A stretch of 64,000 bases of DNA from Aquimarina sp. BL5 (GTDB taxonomy: Bacteria > Bacteroidota > Bacteroidia > Flavobacteriales > Flavobacteriaceae), in assembly GCF_003443675.1 (NCBI RefSeq), contig NZ_CP031963.1, positions 4,053,501 through 4,117,500 on the forward strand, in the 5' to 3' direction. The notes below the pieces were generated by a model. It did not search any database, was not told the origin of the DNA, and was given only the letters and a program-made list of their open reading frames with translations. Positions 16,259-27,723 of the stretch are shown here, one piece after another (the first letter of the stretch is position 1; each line of letters starts with the position of its first letter). Made by a program: the position numbers and the translations under genes.

Positions 16259-16465
16259 TTATTCAATACCTCCTCCGGTAAGACAAAGATGAGTTGCTTG
16301 TGTACCTAAACAACATCCATTTGGTAATGAATACCCGCCACACGATTGACATTCTCTCGGAGTGTAGATAGGACAACTAGCTTTGTTACTACCACCATTT
16401 ACAGATCTTTGTTCTTCTTTACTAAGAGTCTGTGCGTCTTTTAGATTTAAAATGCTTTTTAACAT
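16259..16465 (-). CDS. Double-glycine-leader Cys-rich secreted peptide (bacteriocin-like precursor)
   Basis: 68 residues when read from the ATG at 16465. A longer in-frame start at 16510 adds 15 residues unlike any leader, so I reject it. The leader reads MLKSILNLKDAQTLSKEEQR and then SVNGG, matching the Bacteroidota GG-type leader (L-x-K-x-E-Q-x-x-[IV]-N-G-G) cut after Gly-Gly by peptidase-containing ABC transporters. The core has 43 residues with six Cys and many Gly, so three disulfides or other crosslinks are possible. No C39 transporter, maturase or immunity gene is recognisable next to it, making it an orphan precursor. A thioredoxin-like protein gene lies about 900 bases away on the other strand. 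Function unknown. Confidence 0.7.
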   Translation of the reverse strand: MLKSILNLKDAQTLSKEEQRSVNGGSNKASCPIYTPRECQSCGGYSLPNGCCLGTQATHLCLTGGGIE

Positions 16466-16738
16466 AATTAAGGTTTTAAGAATCATATTTCCCCAAACAT
16501 TTATAGACATTTGAGGTTTCTGTCTATACGATTATTAACGAAAAAATGGGGAATTTGTTGCTTTTTTAGTGTTAGTTATCATTTCTCTAATGATTTTTCT
16601 TTTTGGTTCCAGAACTTGCATAAAATATAGCTCCGATTGGTTTTTTTCTAAAGCGGAGCATTATAGCTAGCAGTAATAATAGTAGAATGTTTAAAAAAAC
16701 TTTAAAATCCAAGGTAACAATTTCATACTTCCTTACAC

Positions 16739-18161: not shown

Positions 18162-18309
18162 ACTTGATAAGAATGTTATAACCCGAGAACCTATGTTTAT
18201 GTTAAAACCTATTATTACATATTCATTGACTTATACAAAAGTTTATTTTACTAGTGATTAAGCTTAGAGCTTTGGTATAACTATTAGCACGAAGAATTAG
18301 CTTAATTTT

Positions 18310-18339
18310 TTTGAGTACCTGTAATTTTCCTTAATTTTG
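18310..18339 (+). promoter_or_regulatory. Promoter of the AraC-BLUF gene
   Basis: TTTG (18310-18313), 18 bases, then TAATTTTG (18332-18339), an exact TAnnTTTG match. The start codon is at 18383, giving a leader of roughly 35-40 bases. Confidence 0.65.
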
Positions 18340-18382: not shown

Positions 18383-19849
18383 ATGTTAGGATTAGAAGAG
18401 AAAAGCCCACTGGAGATGTTACAACAGTTTGCTGTTTATTTTGATGCTAATTTAGAAGAAAGTCTTGGGGCGGCTACTCTTATTTTGAATAATAAACATG
18501 GAGAAGGTAGTATATCTTTATATGAGCTTTTTCCTGGCCTTACTGCCTGGGTTTATAATATTACATTTAATTCTGAACTAGTTATCGATTTAAAGTTTTC
18601 GTCTGATAGACCTTATTATTTTGGGTATCATGTTTCGGGATTTCAAATGCAGAAATTCGCTGACGAGACAGAGTATCATAAAATAAGACAAGGGCAAAAC
18701 TTCATACTTATTAGCGAACCTGGCACTAGTTCTGAATTTAAGATGAGTAGTGGTATCAAATTTGAAAGTTGTTATTTAATTCTAACACCGTCATTATTGA
18801 AGGGCTCTAGCCACAACACGAGGAAGAGACTGGAACAGAACCTAAAAGAAATATTTCTACAAATTTCAGGTGAACGGCCATATCGCTATTTTGGAGATAT
18901 TGATGCACATACCGGTACATTTGCAGAAATTATTATAAAGAATACAAGAATTGATTTAGTAGGCCGACTTTTAACTGAGGGCGCTATAACAAATTTACTT
19001 GCTGCACAAATTGAAGCACACGATTTAGATCATCAAACTGATAATTTTCAGCCCAAGCTTACAAAATCAGAATTATCAAAAATTACAGAACTCGGTGATT
19101 ACATAAGAGATAATATCGACGATAAATTAACAATTTCAGTTCTTAGTAAATATTTAGGTTTTTCTCCAAGAAAACTCCAAGCCGGCGTTCGATTTTTATA
19201 TGGTTATTCTGTTAATGAATATGTAAGCAATGTTAGGATGGAAGTTGCAAAAGAGCTTATCTATAAAACGAACAAGAGTGTTTCTGAAATATGCTATATG
19301 GTTGGTTATTCTAGTAGAAGTCATTTTTCAAATTTATTTTATAAAAGGTTCGGTATTCTTCCTAGTAAATATAAAGACTCGTTCTACAAGGATACTTTAA
19401 TGTATGAAGTAAGTTATCGATCGATAGCAAGTGATAAATTAAATGAATCGGATGTACAACAGATAATAGATGTTTCAAGAATAAACAATAAAAAAAATAA
19501 TATTACAGGAAGTCTGATTTATTATAAAAATGTATTTTTTCAATTAATTGAAGGACCTAAAAAGGAAGTTTTACCGTTATATGATAAAATAAAAGAAGAT
19601 GAAAGGCATACGGATGTGATCACTATGTGGAGTGGATCGAAACCTTACCGCACTTTCGAAAAATGGGATATGTCAATATTATCAGATGATGGTATGCTAA
19701 GCATACAACATCAAGATAGAGTCAAAAAATTAAATTTGGAACATCTTCTAGGAGAGATTGACGAAAACGCAATAGTGTCTCGGAATCTCTGGAGAAAAGT
19801 GAGAACAATTATAAATGTTTCAGGAAAAGTAAGTAAGAGTGAGCTGTGA
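18383..19849 (+). CDS. AraC-family regulator fused to a C-terminal BLUF photoreceptor domain
   Basis: 488 residues in three parts. Residues 1-230 are an N-terminal domain of uncertain fold. Residues about 232-332 are the double AraC HTH, with ISVLSKYLGFSPRKLQ as first and SVSEICYMVGYSSRSHFS as second helix pair and the terminal F-x-K-R-F-G-x-x-P signature. Residues about 338-440 form a BLUF domain. Spaced against AppA of Rhodobacter, the flavin-site residues are all kept: Tyr345 (SYRS), Asn369 (INNK), Gln387 (FFQLIEGP), Trp428 and Met430 (KWDM). BLUF domains bind FAD and sense blue light through the Tyr-Gln-flavin hydrogen-bond network. The protein should be a light-responsive DNA-binding factor. 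Neighbours do not reveal the target genes. Confidence 0.88.
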   Translation: MLGLEEKSPLEMLQQFAVYFDANLEESLGAATLILNNKHGEGSISLYELFPGLTAWVYNITFNSELVIDLKFSSDRPYYFGYHVSGFQMQKFADETEYHKIRQGQNFILISEPGTSSEFKMSSGIKFESCYLILTPSLLKGSSHNTRKRLEQNLKEIFLQISGERPYRYFGDIDAHTGTFAEIIIKNTRIDLVGRLLTEGAITNLLAAQIEAHDLDHQTDNFQPKLTKSELSKITELGDYIRDNIDDKLTISVLSKYLGFSPRKLQAGVRFLYGYSVNEYVSNVRMEVAKELIYKTNKSVSEICYMVGYSSRSHFSNLFYKRFGILPSKYKDSFYKDTLMYEVSYRSIASDKLNESDVQQIIDVSRINNKKNNITGSLIYYKNVFFQLIEGPKKEVLPLYDKIKEDERHTDVITMWSGSKPYRTFEKWDMSILSDDGMLSIQHQDRVKKLNLEHLLGEIDENAIVSRNLWRKVRTIINVSGKVSKSEL

Positions 19850-22809: not shown

Positions 22810-23520
22810 TTAAGAAACAACTTTTTCTTTATAATATCGATACAAATCTTCTGACGAAGCACCTAACCATCTTCTCATATGTATATTAAGAAAATGATAT
22901 TGTAATCGCCAAACTCCAACTTCTCTGTAACGTCTGGCAGAGGTAACCACATATTTAGGGATGATAACAAATTTATTTATTGCAAAAAGTCGGTCAACTA
23001 AATCATTGTCTTCATATACCACATACGCTTCATCATACCCATTTATTTCTTTGAATAATGATGCAGTGATAAACTGACTTTGATCTCCGCCGCGACATCG
23101 TTTACTGTCGAATTGAGTTAACCAACCGAGAAAACGAAGCCACCAATGATTAGAATCAAATTTCATTCTGAAACACCCTGCTTCGTTTTCTTTATGAACT
23201 TCTTCTACAATATATCGGTCATAGTTCTTTGGAGGAAAAGAATCAGCGTGTAAGAAATAGAGTATATCTCCAGAAGCTTTTGCAGCTCCGGCATTCATTT
23301 GTTTAGCACGCCCTTTTTCTGAAGAAACTACTCTAATAGACGTGCTTTGTGTGTTCGAAAAATTCTGTACTGTTTTTATAGACTCGTCCACACTTCCGCC
23401 ATCTACAATGATAATTTCTTCGATAGTATCCGCTGCACTTGCAGCTTGTATTAAATGGGAAAGCAGCTTACAAATTGTAGCTGCTTCATTTAGAATAGGG
23501 ATGATTATTGATATTTTCAA
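22810..23520 (-). CDS. TIGR04283-family arsenosugar biosynthesis glycosyltransferase
   Basis: 236 residues of GT2 type: ISIIIPILNEAATI at the start, IIIVDGGSVDES, then ILYFLHADSFPP with the HAD metal motif in place of DXD, and the family string RCRGGDQSQFI. The TIGR04283 call rests on these strings and on context, because ArsM, ArsS and two TIGR04282 genes are close by on the same strand. It is the most distal gene of the cluster, 26 bases after a DUF547 gene. It probably adds or builds the glycosyl part of the arsenosugar; the exact step is not known. Confidence 0.85.
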   Translation of the reverse strand: MKISIIIPILNEAATICKLLSHLIQAASAADTIEEIIIVDGGSVDESIKTVQNFSNTQSTSIRVVSSEKGRAKQMNAGAAKASGDILYFLHADSFPPKNYDRYIVEEVHKENEAGCFRMKFDSNHWWLRFLGWLTQFDSKRCRGGDQSQFITASLFKEINGYDEAYVVYEDNDLVDRLFAINKFVIIPKYVVTSARRYREVGVWRLQYHFLNIHMRRWLGASSEDLYRYYKEKVVS

Positions 23521-23546
23521 AAGCTTAGTATTATGCGAATATAAAA

Positions 23547-24260
23547 TTACTCATTTAAACTCCAATCGTATTTTTTATATCCTTTCTTTTTCTGTTTATC
23601 AATCTTAACTTCAGAATATTTATTGATAAAAGCTTTAGCATCTTCTCCATCTACTTTGAAATCTTTCTTAAACCAACTGAAGATTTTAGAGACTTCAACT
23701 ACTTCTTCAGTTATCGTATTTCTTTTTGGATCATTTATAAAATTCTTTGTTAGCGTTTCTAATGCATCATCTACATTTCTGGCTGTGAATGCTCTATTCC
23801 AAACTATGGGGCAAGAGAAAGAAGCGCAATTAATAGCAAAATGAATTCTGGGATCGCCAAGCTTTCTAAGAATTTTATGCTCTAATTCATTTAAACTATG
23901 CAAAACACCATTGATTTTGAAAAATTGTCTATGCCAAGGATCTTTAATGTCTTTGATGCTCTTTAAAGGATAATTATCTATAATTAACTTTATAGTGTAC
24001 GCATTATAAGCATTGATCCAGTACGCTAATGTTTCTTCTTTACTCCATGTTGCGGCTGGAGGATTGTCCGAGAGGTAAGTGAAATATTCATATAGTTGAG
24101 CACTATCTCTCATAAATCCTTTGTAATCTACTTTTCCGTCTTCAGAAACATTGATCAATAAAATTTGATCCCAAACAGCATGGTCAAGTTTTTCCTGAGC
24201 TTTTGTCTGAAAAGAGATAAATACCAATAATACTAATATAATTATTTTAGGGGTCTTCAT
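23547..24260 (-). CDS. DUF547 domain protein, secreted, arsenosugar cluster
   Basis: 237 residues with a signal peptide (cut near TKAQ). DUF547 marks: VDYKGFMRD, WINAYNAYTIKLIIDNYP, SLNELEHKILRKLGDPRIHFAINCAS with its Cys pair, and a C-terminal KKYDWSLNE. It is a paralogue of 9318-10028 but closer to the DUF547 proteins that often occur with arsenosugar genes. Function unknown. It directly precedes the TIGR04283 gene and is separated from ArsM by an old-yellow-enzyme gene on the other strand. Confidence 0.85.
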   Translation of the reverse strand: MKTPKIIILVLLVFISFQTKAQEKLDHAVWDQILLINVSEDGKVDYKGFMRDSAQLYEYFTYLSDNPPAATWSKEETLAYWINAYNAYTIKLIIDNYPLKSIKDIKDPWHRQFFKINGVLHSLNELEHKILRKLGDPRIHFAINCASFSCPIVWNRAFTARNVDDALETLTKNFINDPKRNTITEEVVEVSKIFSWFKKDFKVDGEDAKAFINKYSEVKIDKQKKKGYKKYDWSLNE

Positions 24261-24446
24261 TTTTTTTAATCTTTTTTAATCCATCCAGATGTATCGATTT
24301 TTACAAATGGCTAATTGTGTTCAACTTTTAATTACTTTTTTGTTTTCAAATAACGAAAATTCTATTAAATATTCGTTAAATACTTGGGTTTAGTCCAAAG
24401 TTTGTGCCACTCCTTACAAATATAGTTATGGCCAATGTTTTTTGGT

Positions 24447-24478
24447 TTTGCAAGTCAATTTCTGATTCCGTATTATTG
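24447..24478 (+). promoter_or_regulatory. Probable promoter of the old-yellow-enzyme gene
   Basis: TTTG (24447-24450), 20 bases, then TATTATTG (24471-24478), one mismatch from TAnnTTTG. It predicts a start of transcription near 24485, which rules out a TTG at 24482 and supports the ATG at 24497. Confidence 0.5.
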
Positions 24479-24496
24479 TAATTGAACTGTTTTTAT

Positions 24497-25717
24497 ATGA
24501 TTAGTACAACTTTAAAACTCCCCTGCGGTGCGATATTAAATAATAGATTAGTGAAATCTGCTATGACGGAGCGCATTAGTAATAATAAGTTTGAACCAAC
24601 TAAGGGGCATGAACAATTGTATGCTGATTGGTCCAAAACAGGTGCAGGCTTATTAATAACAGGTAATGTTGTACTGGATCGAAAACATGTCGAGTCAGCA
24701 GGAAATGTGTGTTTTGATGATAGAAGGATGCTGCCAAAACTAAAATCATGGGCCAAAGCGGGTAAAAAACATGGAAATCATATATGGGTTCAGATTTCTC
24801 ATTCCGGAAGACAAACGAATAGATTTGGAACGAGTAGACCCTTAGCACCTTCTGAGGTGCAGTTAAAGAAATTAGGGCTTTTTGGTAAACCGAAAGCAAT
24901 GACAGAAGAGGATATCCTAGACGTGATCCAACGTTTTGTTACTGCTGCTAAACTAGCCAAAGAAGCTGGTTTTACTGGGGTTCAAATTCATTCGGCTCAC
25001 GGATATCTATTAAGTCAATTTTTATCACCCAATACTAATATAAGATCTGATCATTGGGGTGGTAATATAGAGAATCGTAGCCGTTTATTACTCACGATTA
25101 TCAGAGATGTTAGAAAAGTTGTTGGAACTGATTTTCCGATATCTGTTAAATTGAATTCAGCGGATTTTCAGAGAGGAGGATTTACCGAAGAAGAATCACT
25201 GGAAGTGATAAAGATGTTAGACAAGGAAAAGATCGATTTGCTCGAGATATCAGGAGGGACTTATGAAAAACTAGCTTTTTTTATAATGAATGAAGAGGAT
25301 TCTGATCTTAAAGAAAGCACGAAACAGAGAGAGGCATATTTTATCGATTTTGCTAAGAAAATCAGAGTTGTTAGTAAGTTGCCTCTAATGATTACAGGTG
25401 GTTTTAGATCTTATGATTTTTGTAATGAAGTGTTAGCAAAGGGAGAGGTTGATTTGATAGGGATGGCTCGTCCTTTTATTACCAATCGAGAGGATATATC
25501 TAAATTTTTAGTTGGAGAATTACCATGTCTTGAAAACCTGGTACTCCGCACTGGATTAAAACAATTCGAAGATGCTGCTGAAGGTGGTTTTTATGCTAGG
25601 CAAATTATCCGGTTTTCTAAAGGGAAAGGACTAAAAACCAATATGAACCCACTTTGGTGTTCTATGTTTCTAATAGTATATGAATTCCGAAAAGCGATGG
25701 CTAAGAAATTAGCTTGA
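24497..25717 (+). CDS. NADH:flavin oxidoreductase (old yellow enzyme family)
   Basis: 406 residues from the ATG at 24497 (an upstream TTG at 24482 would fall on the transcription start). FMN-binding TIM barrel: LNNRLVKSAMTER at the start, TGNVVLDRKHVE, IWVQISHSGRQ, VQIHSAHGYLLSQFLSPNTN, the NRSRLLLTI helix, and a phosphate-binding TGGFRS / GMARPFI end. It lies on the plus strand inside the arsenosugar cluster. It may reduce an enone or other electrophile; a role in arsenic chemistry is only suggested by position. Confidence 0.88.
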   Translation: MISTTLKLPCGAILNNRLVKSAMTERISNNKFEPTKGHEQLYADWSKTGAGLLITGNVVLDRKHVESAGNVCFDDRRMLPKLKSWAKAGKKHGNHIWVQISHSGRQTNRFGTSRPLAPSEVQLKKLGLFGKPKAMTEEDILDVIQRFVTAAKLAKEAGFTGVQIHSAHGYLLSQFLSPNTNIRSDHWGGNIENRSRLLLTIIRDVRKVVGTDFPISVKLNSADFQRGGFTEEESLEVIKMLDKEKIDLLEISGGTYEKLAFFIMNEEDSDLKESTKQREAYFIDFAKKIRVVSKLPLMITGGFRSYDFCNEVLAKGEVDLIGMARPFITNREDISKFLVGELPCLENLVLRTGLKQFEDAAEGGFYARQIIRFSKGKGLKTNMNPLWCSMFLIVYEFRKAMAKKLA

Positions 25718-25765
25718 AAAAACAATGAGGATGTCTGTAAAGTAACTTTACTATGCTAAACTAAG

Positions 25766-25825
25766 CTTGTCGAAGTTTTTAATCCGTTGATTTTCAAAAT
25801 GTCTTCGACAGGCTCAGACTGACAA
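25766..25825. repeat. REP-like inverted repeat between convergent genes
   Basis: CTTGTCGAAG (25766-25775) and CTTCGACAGG (25803-25812) form an imperfect 10-bp stem with one wobble pair. The right arm runs on into CTCAGACTGACA. This CTTCGACAGGCTCAGACTGACA type is a dispersed intergenic repeat in Bacteroidota genomes, recalled from general knowledge. It may act as a bidirectional terminator here. Confidence 0.55.
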
Positions 25826-25892
25826 TTTTAGATTTTGTTCACTTTTCAGACAGCCTCATATAAAATTATTACTTAAAGCGAGTTTTAAAATT

Positions 25893-26861
25893 TTAGCAAC
25901 ATCCACCACCATCATAGTGGTACGTAGATTCGCTGATGAAAATATCATCTCTTCCCAGGTCAGCAAGAGCACCAGCAGTTTTATCACAAACCGCAATAGG
26001 TTGATTTTTCAGTAATACGTGTCCTTTTTTATCATCAAAATAATCTTCATTACCATAATAAATGGCTGCCTTACCAGTAAAAATACAAGGGCCATCTTCT
26101 GGCATAGGGTCTTTGATTGCAGCTACTTCAATAGATTCTATATAGATTAATTCATCGGTTTCATAGTTTTTAGGATCCAAAATACGATACGGTTTACGCG
26201 CTCTAATTTCTATGGTTCCAAAACCAACATCGGTCAATGCTTTTACATATTCCGCAATAGGTAAACTTCCACTAAGACATAAAGCTCTTAATCGTTCATC
26301 ATTTCTGAGCGTATCATTCATAGGTTGCTCGCAAGTTGGATCACTCATCACTAATCTACCATGAGGTTTTAATACTCGATACATTTCCTCTATCGCTTTT
26401 TTTAAATCCTCTGCTTTAAAAATATTGAATAAACAATTTTGAGCGGCAACATCAATACTATTATCTTCTACGGGAAGATTCAGAGCATCACCAAATCTTA
26501 AGTCTACAAACTCACTTTTGAACCATTCATTTTGTTCTTCTGCTTCTTTAAAATTTTTACGAGAAGCATCTAGCATTTCCTGAACTACATCAATACCAAT
26601 TACTCCACCTTTTTGACGAGAGAAATACGAAAATTGTAATAATTCCATTCCGCCACCAACACCAACATAAAGTGTTTTTGGATTATTGGTTAAATCACGG
26701 GCGTTTACTGTACTCCCACAACCATAATTCATTTCTTGCATGATCTTTGGGATTTTTAATCCAGGTAGTTCCCAAATAGGATTTGTGGTACAACATAAAC
26801 CTACATCTGGAGTTAATGCTGCTTCTTTGTATACATCATGCGTGGTTTCTAAATAGCTCAT
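25893..26861 (-). CDS. arsM: Arsenosugar biosynthesis arsenite methyltransferase ArsM
   Basis: 322 residues. An N-terminal Cys pair (Cys23-Cys24, GLCCTTN) precedes a class I methyltransferase core with the SAM motif LYVGVGGGMELLQ, the IGIDVVQEMLDASRKN acidic loop, and GDALNLPVEDNSIDVAAQNC with a further Cys. The C-terminus carries LRALCLSGS and ends GGGCC. The conserved thiols bind As(III), and ArsM adds methyl groups from SAM. It sits next to a purine nucleoside phosphorylase and in the same strand run as ArsS, the defining pair of arsenosugar synthesis. The Cys placement differs from stand-alone ArsM and fits the arsenosugar-type branch. Confidence 0.9.
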   Translation of the reverse strand: MSYLETTHDVYKEAALTPDVGLCCTTNPIWELPGLKIPKIMQEMNYGCGSTVNARDLTNNPKTLYVGVGGGMELLQFSYFSRQKGGVIGIDVVQEMLDASRKNFKEAEEQNEWFKSEFVDLRFGDALNLPVEDNSIDVAAQNCLFNIFKAEDLKKAIEEMYRVLKPHGRLVMSDPTCEQPMNDTLRNDERLRALCLSGSLPIAEYVKALTDVGFGTIEIRARKPYRILDPKNYETDELIYIESIEVAAIKDPMPEDGPCIFTGKAAIYYGNEDYFDDKKGHVLLKNQPIAVCDKTAGALADLGRDDIFISESTYHYDGGGCC

Positions 26862-26910
26862 ATTTTTGTTTTCTTTATTTTGAAGGAATAATTACTTAAT
26901 TCGTTAATGT

Positions 26911-27723
26911 TTAGAGAGATTTTATCAATTCTTTGAATAAAAGGATCATTTCCGGTTCCGCTTTTCCGGCCATGGCAATAATCTCGTCAATATTGACAGG
27001 TTGTAGATTGTCTGGGTCACATTCGTCTGTAAGAACAGATACTGCTGCAACTTTAAGATCTAAATGATTGGCTACAATAATTTCAGGAACTGTGCTCATT
27101 CCTACTGCATCGGCTCCAATGATTTTTAGATAACGATATTCTGCGCGGGTTTCTAATTGCGGTCCTACTACAGAGGCATATACACCTTTATGAAGATTAA
27201 TGTTATTTTCTTTAGCAATGGATTCTAATTTTGCATTAATTTTAAGGTTATAAGGAGCACTCATATCTGTAAAACGGGTGCCTAATTGTTCTACTCCTTT
27301 AAATGCTAAAGGAGATCCTCCCTGAAGATTAATGTGATCATCAATAAGCATTAATTCGCCTTTTTTAAAGTTTAAATTAATCGCTCCGGATGCATTAGAA
27401 ACTAAAAGTGTTTTGATTCCTAATTGATGCATAATTCTAACAGGATATGTCACATCTTGTAGAGAGTAACCTTCGTAGAGATGAAAACGTCCTTGCATTA
27501 CCACTACTTTTTTGCCTTCTAACTTTCCGTAGATTAATTTTCCTTTGTGGAATTCTACTGTGGCTGTAGGGAAATAGGGAATGTGATTATAACTTACTTC
27601 TTTTATGATTTCTATTTCATCTAGTAACTGTCCTAATCCTGTTCCTAAGATGATACCTATTTCTGGATTATCAAATCCTTTTTCTTGTAAGTATTCTGTT
27701 GTTTCTTTAATGTATTTAGTCAT
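26911..27723 (-). CDS. Purine-nucleoside phosphorylase, arsenosugar cluster
   Basis: 270 residues of the trimeric PNP (PunA-like) family: IILGTGLGQLL phosphate loop, VVMQGRFHLYEGY, LLVSNASGAINL, GVYASVVGPQLETRAEYR, and VGMSTVPEIIVANH. It cleaves the glycosidic bond of purine nucleosides with phosphate. In this cluster it could remove adenine from the 5'-deoxyadenosyl arsenical made by ArsS and leave an activated arsenoribose phosphate. That role is inference; a plain nucleoside-salvage function is the alternative. It overlaps the TIGR04282 gene by eight bases. Confidence 0.9.
   Translation of the reverse strand: MTKYIKETTEYLQEKGFDNPEIGIILGTGLGQLLDEIEIIKEVSYNHIPYFPTATVEFHKGKLIYGKLEGKKVVVMQGRFHLYEGYSLQDVTYPVRIMHQLGIKTLLVSNASGAINLNFKKGELMLIDDHINLQGGSPLAFKGVEQLGTRFTDMSAPYNLKINAKLESIAKENNINLHKGVYASVVGPQLETRAEYRYLKIIGADAVGMSTVPEIIVANHLDLKVAAVSVLTDECDPDNLQPVNIDEIIAMAGKAEPEMILLFKELIKSL

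Follow-up and report, generated by a model that had tools for sequence, protein, structure and literature searches.

The window, that is, the whole 64,000-nucleotide stretch of Aquimarina sp. BL5 DNA analysed here, carries on its forward strand an unbroken, single-frame open reading frame (18383-19849) of 488 residues, which encodes an AraC-type regulator continued by a BLUF domain. The gene, its parts and the DNA upstream are as follows.

18231..18280, no strand assigned: weak operator candidate, an 11-nt inverted repeat, 10/11 complementary, arms 28 nt apart
18310..18339, + strand: candidate Bacteroidetes-type promoter TTTG-N18-TAATTTTG, ending 43 nt before the ATG
18383..19849, + strand: whole gene, AraC-type regulator with C-terminal BLUF domain, 488 aa (open reading frame, Pfam)
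18383..19057, + strand: residues 1-225, AraC/CuxR-like cupin regulatory domain with dimerisation-type helices, without Pfam match
19073..19381, + strand: residues 231-333, double AraC helix-turn-helix (HTH)
19382..19399, + strand: residues 334-339, HTH-BLUF junction (P327-Y345 interval of 17 residues in 65/66 fusions)
19400..19675, + strand: residues 340-431, BLUF domain with Tyr345, Asn369, Gln387, Trp428 and Met430 (Pfam, fold, conservation)
19676..19846, + strand: residues 432-488, C-terminal helices alignable to the cap helices of PixD, BlrB and AppA (fold, conservation)

The Pfam search placed HTH_18 at residues 254-331, HTH_AraC at 294-328 and BLUF at 340-430, each above its cut-off, with the BLUF match (PF04940) scoring 94.2 bits against a curated cut-off of 25. 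The N-terminal part had no match in this search, and at E 0.01 the chain showed only BLUF, HTH_18 and HTH_AraC, with no LOV (PAS-type) sensor domain and no EAL, GGDEF or cyclase domain. A stand-alone short BLUF protein was ruled out, the domain occupying residues 340-430 of 488 within one frame. In a sequence search of the PDB, the C-terminal part matched BLUF chains (a photoactivated cyclase, PixD and AppA), the middle part matched AraC-type DNA-binding domains, and the top match of the protein was bPAC. Structure models resemble solved AraC-type and BLUF structures: the double HTH of the AraC/XylS family (HTH_18/HTH_AraC) is found by Pfam and by fold comparison, the N-terminal part has the cupin-type regulatory and dimerisation domain of that family, and the C-terminal region is modelled with the ferredoxin-like BLUF fold, stretch 429-451 having low confidence. 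The preliminary description of this DNA, made from the sequence alone, had read the frame as an N-terminal domain, a double AraC HTH and a BLUF domain with flavin-site residues like those of AppA in identity and spacing, and had named structure prediction of the C-terminal region as a check. The open reading frame, Pfam and the models bear out this anatomy, all five residues are present and the predicted fold is the expected one.

The candidate promoter follows what we take to be the Bacteroidetes-type consensus, and both of its elements and their spacing are unchanged in L092, the locus with a 98%-identical copy of the gene. Both arms of the inverted repeat are also kept in L092, and a single arm occurs 9 times genome-wide against 5.15 expected, which is near chance. 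No shuffled sequence gave the repeat pattern, but the pattern was picked after being seen, so this zero means little, and the operator candidate may be a chance product. Since the repeat is present at only one place in the genome, it does not point to a regulon. The upstream neighbour is a thioredoxin-like gene on the same strand, and downstream lies a series of convergent genes, the first of which is a YceI gene. On the reverse strand at 16259-16510, a small frame resembles, by eye, a secreted-peptide precursor with a Gly-Gly leader ahead of a core that contains Cys; an NCBIfam search with it gave no match. Farther along the reverse strand, arsenosugar-type genes (22810-27723) include the following.

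22810-23520, - strand: TIGR04283 arsenosugar glycosyltransferase
25893-26861, - strand: ArsM of the arsenosugar type (577 bits)
26911-27723, - strand: purine nucleoside phosphorylase

A count of HTH_18-plus-BLUF proteins across Bacteroidota had been proposed beforehand, and such fusions were found. The full-length query returned 102 relatives, whose domain make-up was taken from precomputed Pfam: 48 combine HTH_18 with BLUF, 53 are AraC-type proteins lacking BLUF and the last is a BLUF-bearing cyclase. The fusions with a named source come from Aquimarina, Zobellia, Maribacter, Psychroserpens, Dokdonia and Aggregatimonas, to which a profile search added Galbibacter; the nearest named relatives are from Aquimarina, in keeping with the flavobacterium assumed in the preliminary description. 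Among 397 sampled genomes of the same family, 154 hold a BLUF domain, 12 match the window protein at E <= 1e-55 and at least 11 carry a fusion (14 fusion genes), a lower bound with at most three candidates scored per genome; one of the 12, G188, has only an AraC-only relative among the candidates scored. Within the genus (33 genomes, its own included), at least five genomes carry fusions among the matches listed (G000, G409, G427, G417 and G399), with at least five fusion genes in G399 and four in G417. At least three of 395 genomes sampled across the phylum have a listed fusion at E <= 1e-30, and G509, from another family of the same class, holds one at L139:8498-9967. Presence is patchy across the sampled genomes, and the window protein is one member of an AraC-BLUF family rather than a one-off. 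Existing database names for these genes are 'BLUF domain-containing protein' or 'AraC-like DNA-binding protein'. One genome of the genus, G399, does have an AraC-only gene (L105_7, L105:7419-8438) and a short BLUF gene (L105_8, L105:8443-8883) 4 nt apart on one strand, an arrangement that a sequencing or assembly error might merge into an apparent fusion. However, the single open frame in the window and the 48 of 102 matches with HTH_18 plus BLUF, drawn from several sources, make the chance of such an artefact negligible.

Other light-related genes were also observed. The genome of the window itself has three tandem short BLUF genes (G000:C1:2222707-2224027; L093:8699-10166) that keep Tyr, Asn and Gln and have Tyr or Phe and Ser at the positions of Trp428 and Met430 of the fusion. 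No Bac_rhodopsin match was found in this genome, nor in any control genome, so the negative carries little weight for the non-phototrophic habit assumed in the preliminary description. A 342-residue protein of another flavobacterium (G253, L140:1354-2382) has an N-terminal BLUF domain by Pfam followed, by eye, by a class III adenylyl cyclase, an order that resembles photoactivated cyclases.

Conservation of the flavin site was counted in 66 full-length fusions, after removal of the identical copies P0001, P0019, P0026 and P0045; this set does not include P0011, P0040, P0053 and P0103 (partial or shorter), L139 or P0104, and it counts twice one protein with differing starts (L107_7 and P0023). 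Tyr345 and Gln387 are present in all 66 and Asn369 in 65, the Tyr/Asn/Gln set being complete in 65. Trp428 is kept in 60 and lost in 6, the Y-N-Q-W pattern with exact spacing occurs in 60, and at position 430 Met stands in 48 fusions, Leu in 17 and Val in one. W470 in the C-terminal helices is kept in 65 of the 66. The strongest exception at the flavin site, L112_7 (Lys369, Cys428), is the second gene of a tandem pair of AraC-BLUF fusions in genome G154 (L112:7402-10500) and lacks both Asn369 and Trp428. Against L092, dN/dS is low, 0.08 for the whole gene, 0.07 for the N-terminal part, 0.07 for the HTH, 0.22 for BLUF and 0 for the C-terminal helices; the counts are small, with 33.5 silent and 11.5 replacement changes in the gene and 5 of each in BLUF. 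In BLUF photochemistry, light on the flavin reorders the hydrogen bonds between Tyr, Gln and flavin, and the Tyr-Gln pair is required. The BLUF domain of the fusions might bind flavin and yet sense redox state or flavin level, or just aid dimerisation, without any sensing of light in the cell. Its dN/dS, the highest of all parts, the absence of Trp428 in 6 and of Asn369 in one of the 66 fusions, and the BLUF-less relatives nested in the tree described below all speak for such a role; retention of the Tyr/Asn/Gln set, with the photochemical pair, in 65 of 66 speaks against it, and we consider it unlikely.

The interval from P327, at the end of the HTH, to Y345, in the first BLUF strand, measures 18 residues in the single fusion in which it is not 17, and residues 334-339 within it have the highest entropy (2.88 bits) among six segments. 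The commonest length is found in 56 of 66 fusions for the cupin-HTH linker and in 57 of 66 for the stretch after Trp428, and segments inside folded domains are likewise nearly or fully fixed in length. Because length is kept while sequence varies, this between-domain stretch suggests a rigid joint; the argument is only suggestive, since fixed lengths are also usual within folded domains.

The neighbourhoods of 23 fusion loci (the window included; 25 fusion genes) and of four non-fusion loci were surveyed by clustering, and L139 was examined too. No neighbour genes are conserved between the fusion loci, the neighbourhood in the window being common only to the near-identical L092. Elsewhere, AraC paralogues, short BLUFs and a PAS histidine kinase each recur in three loci, the remaining recurrent families being pairs; these are too few for a regulon to be named from the neighbours. 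A catalase gene lies 5.5 kb from the fusion in L103, and a UmuC-like polymerase gene lies upstream of it in L107. In L114 of genome G347, a short BLUF gene, a catalase gene and an AraC-BLUF fusion are adjacent (L114:5277-9834) with a PAS histidine kinase near, possibly forming a light and oxidative-stress island. L110, L114, L115 and L139, four loci of different genomes, each have an AraC-only gene 0.3-1.3 kb from the fusion, divergently transcribed in two of them; these genes are of a shared type (34-63% identity to one another); different AraC-only genes are nearby in L103 and L105, and L099 and L112 have tandem fusions. Partner regulators beside the fusions are a lead, not a result. Such a neighbour could be the other protein for which BLUF served as a light-controlled docking site, DNA binding by the protein's own HTH remaining unchanged, and short BLUF proteins are described as working through protein-protein contact (PMC8508746, available text). 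However, the window gene is without such a partner, as are the remaining loci examined save for the different AraC-only genes in L103 and L105, and the fixed-length junction suggests coupling within the chain. Docking of this kind seems to us distinctly improbable.

The history of the fusion was examined with separate trees of the BLUF and AraC parts. Set against 34 short BLUFs, the fusion BLUFs (68 fusion rows, among them P0011 and P0053, which are shorter) group as a single clade with support of 98/97, and of 100/97 in a reduced set; the short BLUFs, a partial sample, comprise 29 from the 30 loci that the BLUF search of the family returned, the three of the window's own genome, L114_9 and L105_8. 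In the AraC-part tree, which excludes P0077, P0082 and P0083 (more than 360 residues) and P0096-P0102, 66 fusions and 53 AraC-only proteins are interleaved, the latter stopping 0 to about 30 residues past the HTH. A reduced AraC-part tree (49 of the 66 fusions and 26 of the 53 AraC-only proteins, with six long-branch rows removed and near-copies thinned) requires five changes, four of them forced by well-supported branches, and none of 200 bootstrap trees needs only one. One gain without loss was rejected for the AraC part: the log-likelihood drops by 153 units when the fusions are constrained to one clade (AU p 2.9e-6). In the reduced tree, two gains and three losses come to one change fewer than one gain and five losses, but a single gain is preferred because the BLUF domains of the fusions fall in one clade and share one spacer length. 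The simplest account, and a probable one, is a single fusion event followed by repeated loss of BLUF, with domain exchange between paralogues as a possible alternative. The L105_7/L105_8 pair (L105:7419-8883) adjoins a convergent AraC-BLUF fusion. L105_7 branches just outside the fusions in the AraC-part trees; L105_8 falls among the remaining short BLUFs, with a very long branch of its own, and the AU test does not reject a tree that places it with the fusions (p 0.31). The pair may be a pre-fusion relic. A search with the BLUF part alone yielded one extra fragment, P0103, and found no donor.

AraC, CuxR and BgaR share with the window protein a cupin regulatory domain and a C-terminal double HTH; they end at the HTH, whereas the window protein continues into a light-sensor domain. 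Escherichia coli Rob likewise has an extra C-terminal domain after its AraC-type HTH, but this domain is not known to be BLUF and Rob is not known to have an N-terminal cupin. LOV-HTH regulators of the EL222 type differ in their LOV photochemistry, their HTH family, the reverse position of the sensor and the lack of a cupin domain. In concept they are likewise one-component blue-light transcription factors (PMC4844311, available text). In bPAC and the BLUF-EAL proteins YcgF and BlrP1, BLUF is covalently linked to an effector as in the window protein, but there the effector that follows BLUF is an enzyme domain, in some cases a degenerate one; the target of YcgF is a separate repressor, BluR (PMC3509220, available text). 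AppA, PixD/Tll0078, BlrB and BlsA have the same BLUF fold and flavin-site residues as the window protein, and their C-terminal helices align with it. According to the available text of PMC8508746 and PMC4844311, their BLUF domain is stand-alone or N-terminal and acts through other proteins, whereas in the window protein it lies behind the DNA-binding domain of a single chain. Illumination of the short BLUF protein BlsA changes its affinity for effector proteins that include AraC-like regulators (PMC8508746, available text), which by analogy makes BlsA the nearest two-protein precedent for BLUF-AraC control.

That an AraC fusion is no textbook architecture, as stated in the preliminary description, agrees with the available text of PMC4844311, section 10, in which 64% of BLUF proteins are short and 34% have EAL. 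The same section counts eight bacterial LOV proteins with HTH. However, this review, treating LOV and BLUF receptors as one group, also says that HTH-type DNA-binding partners are found 'quite frequently', so specialists may know of BLUF-HTH proteins that it does not list. The MerR-type BLUF fusions also mentioned in that description met with no confirmation here. In the literature found on BLUF and AraC, with supplements and most subscription journals outside its scope, no AraC-BLUF protein is described; both modules are known families.

Taken together, these features argue that the gene product is probably a one-component, dual-input transcription factor of cupin, double HTH and BLUF, in which blue light alters DNA binding or activation. 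Pfam and fold evidence stands behind its three parts, the gene has its own candidate promoter, and anatomy, modelled fold and conservation support the blue-light-to-transcription switch in one protein that had been suggested earlier. The N-terminal cupin would serve for dimerisation and may also bind a small ligand; since it is an AraC/CuxR-like regulatory domain, a second input besides light is likely. The double HTH would contact DNA and the BLUF domain would hold the flavin. Blue light would rearrange the hydrogen-bond network of Tyr345, Gln387 and flavin, as it does in BLUF domains elsewhere, and this movement would pass through the short, fixed-length junction to the second HTH, altering its affinity for DNA or its contact as an activator. 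Flavin binding, the photocycle, light control of DNA binding and its direction, the ligand and the targets are what we infer for this switch. The reading is weakened by the BLUF-less relatives, whose nesting inside the fusion tree indicates that the regulator can evolve without light sensing. Further points against it are the dN/dS of BLUF, the highest of all parts, the loss of Trp428 in 6 of 66 fusions, the Lys369 and Cys428 of L112_7, the lack of conserved neighbours or a regulon, and the low-confidence model of residues 429-451.

More tentatively, and with somewhat less than even confidence, the family may be a class of AraC photoreceptors in Bacteroidota that take both a ligand and blue light as input and have a single origin, in which a whole short BLUF became attached behind an AraC regulator through a length-locked junction. 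Several losses would have followed, with multiplication in some genomes. One tandem pair includes L112_7, apparently blind, and mixed dimers of the two partners could grade the light response.

The characterised BLUF receptors compared here work through partner proteins or enzyme domains. If the switch reading is true, a BLUF transcription factor made of one chain would allow the step from BLUF photochemistry to DNA to be measured directly, and a compact optogenetic regulator would be possible. The nested BLUF-less relatives offer natural controls, one scaffold with and without the light sensor. For the bacteria themselves, the fusion would link blue light directly to transcription.
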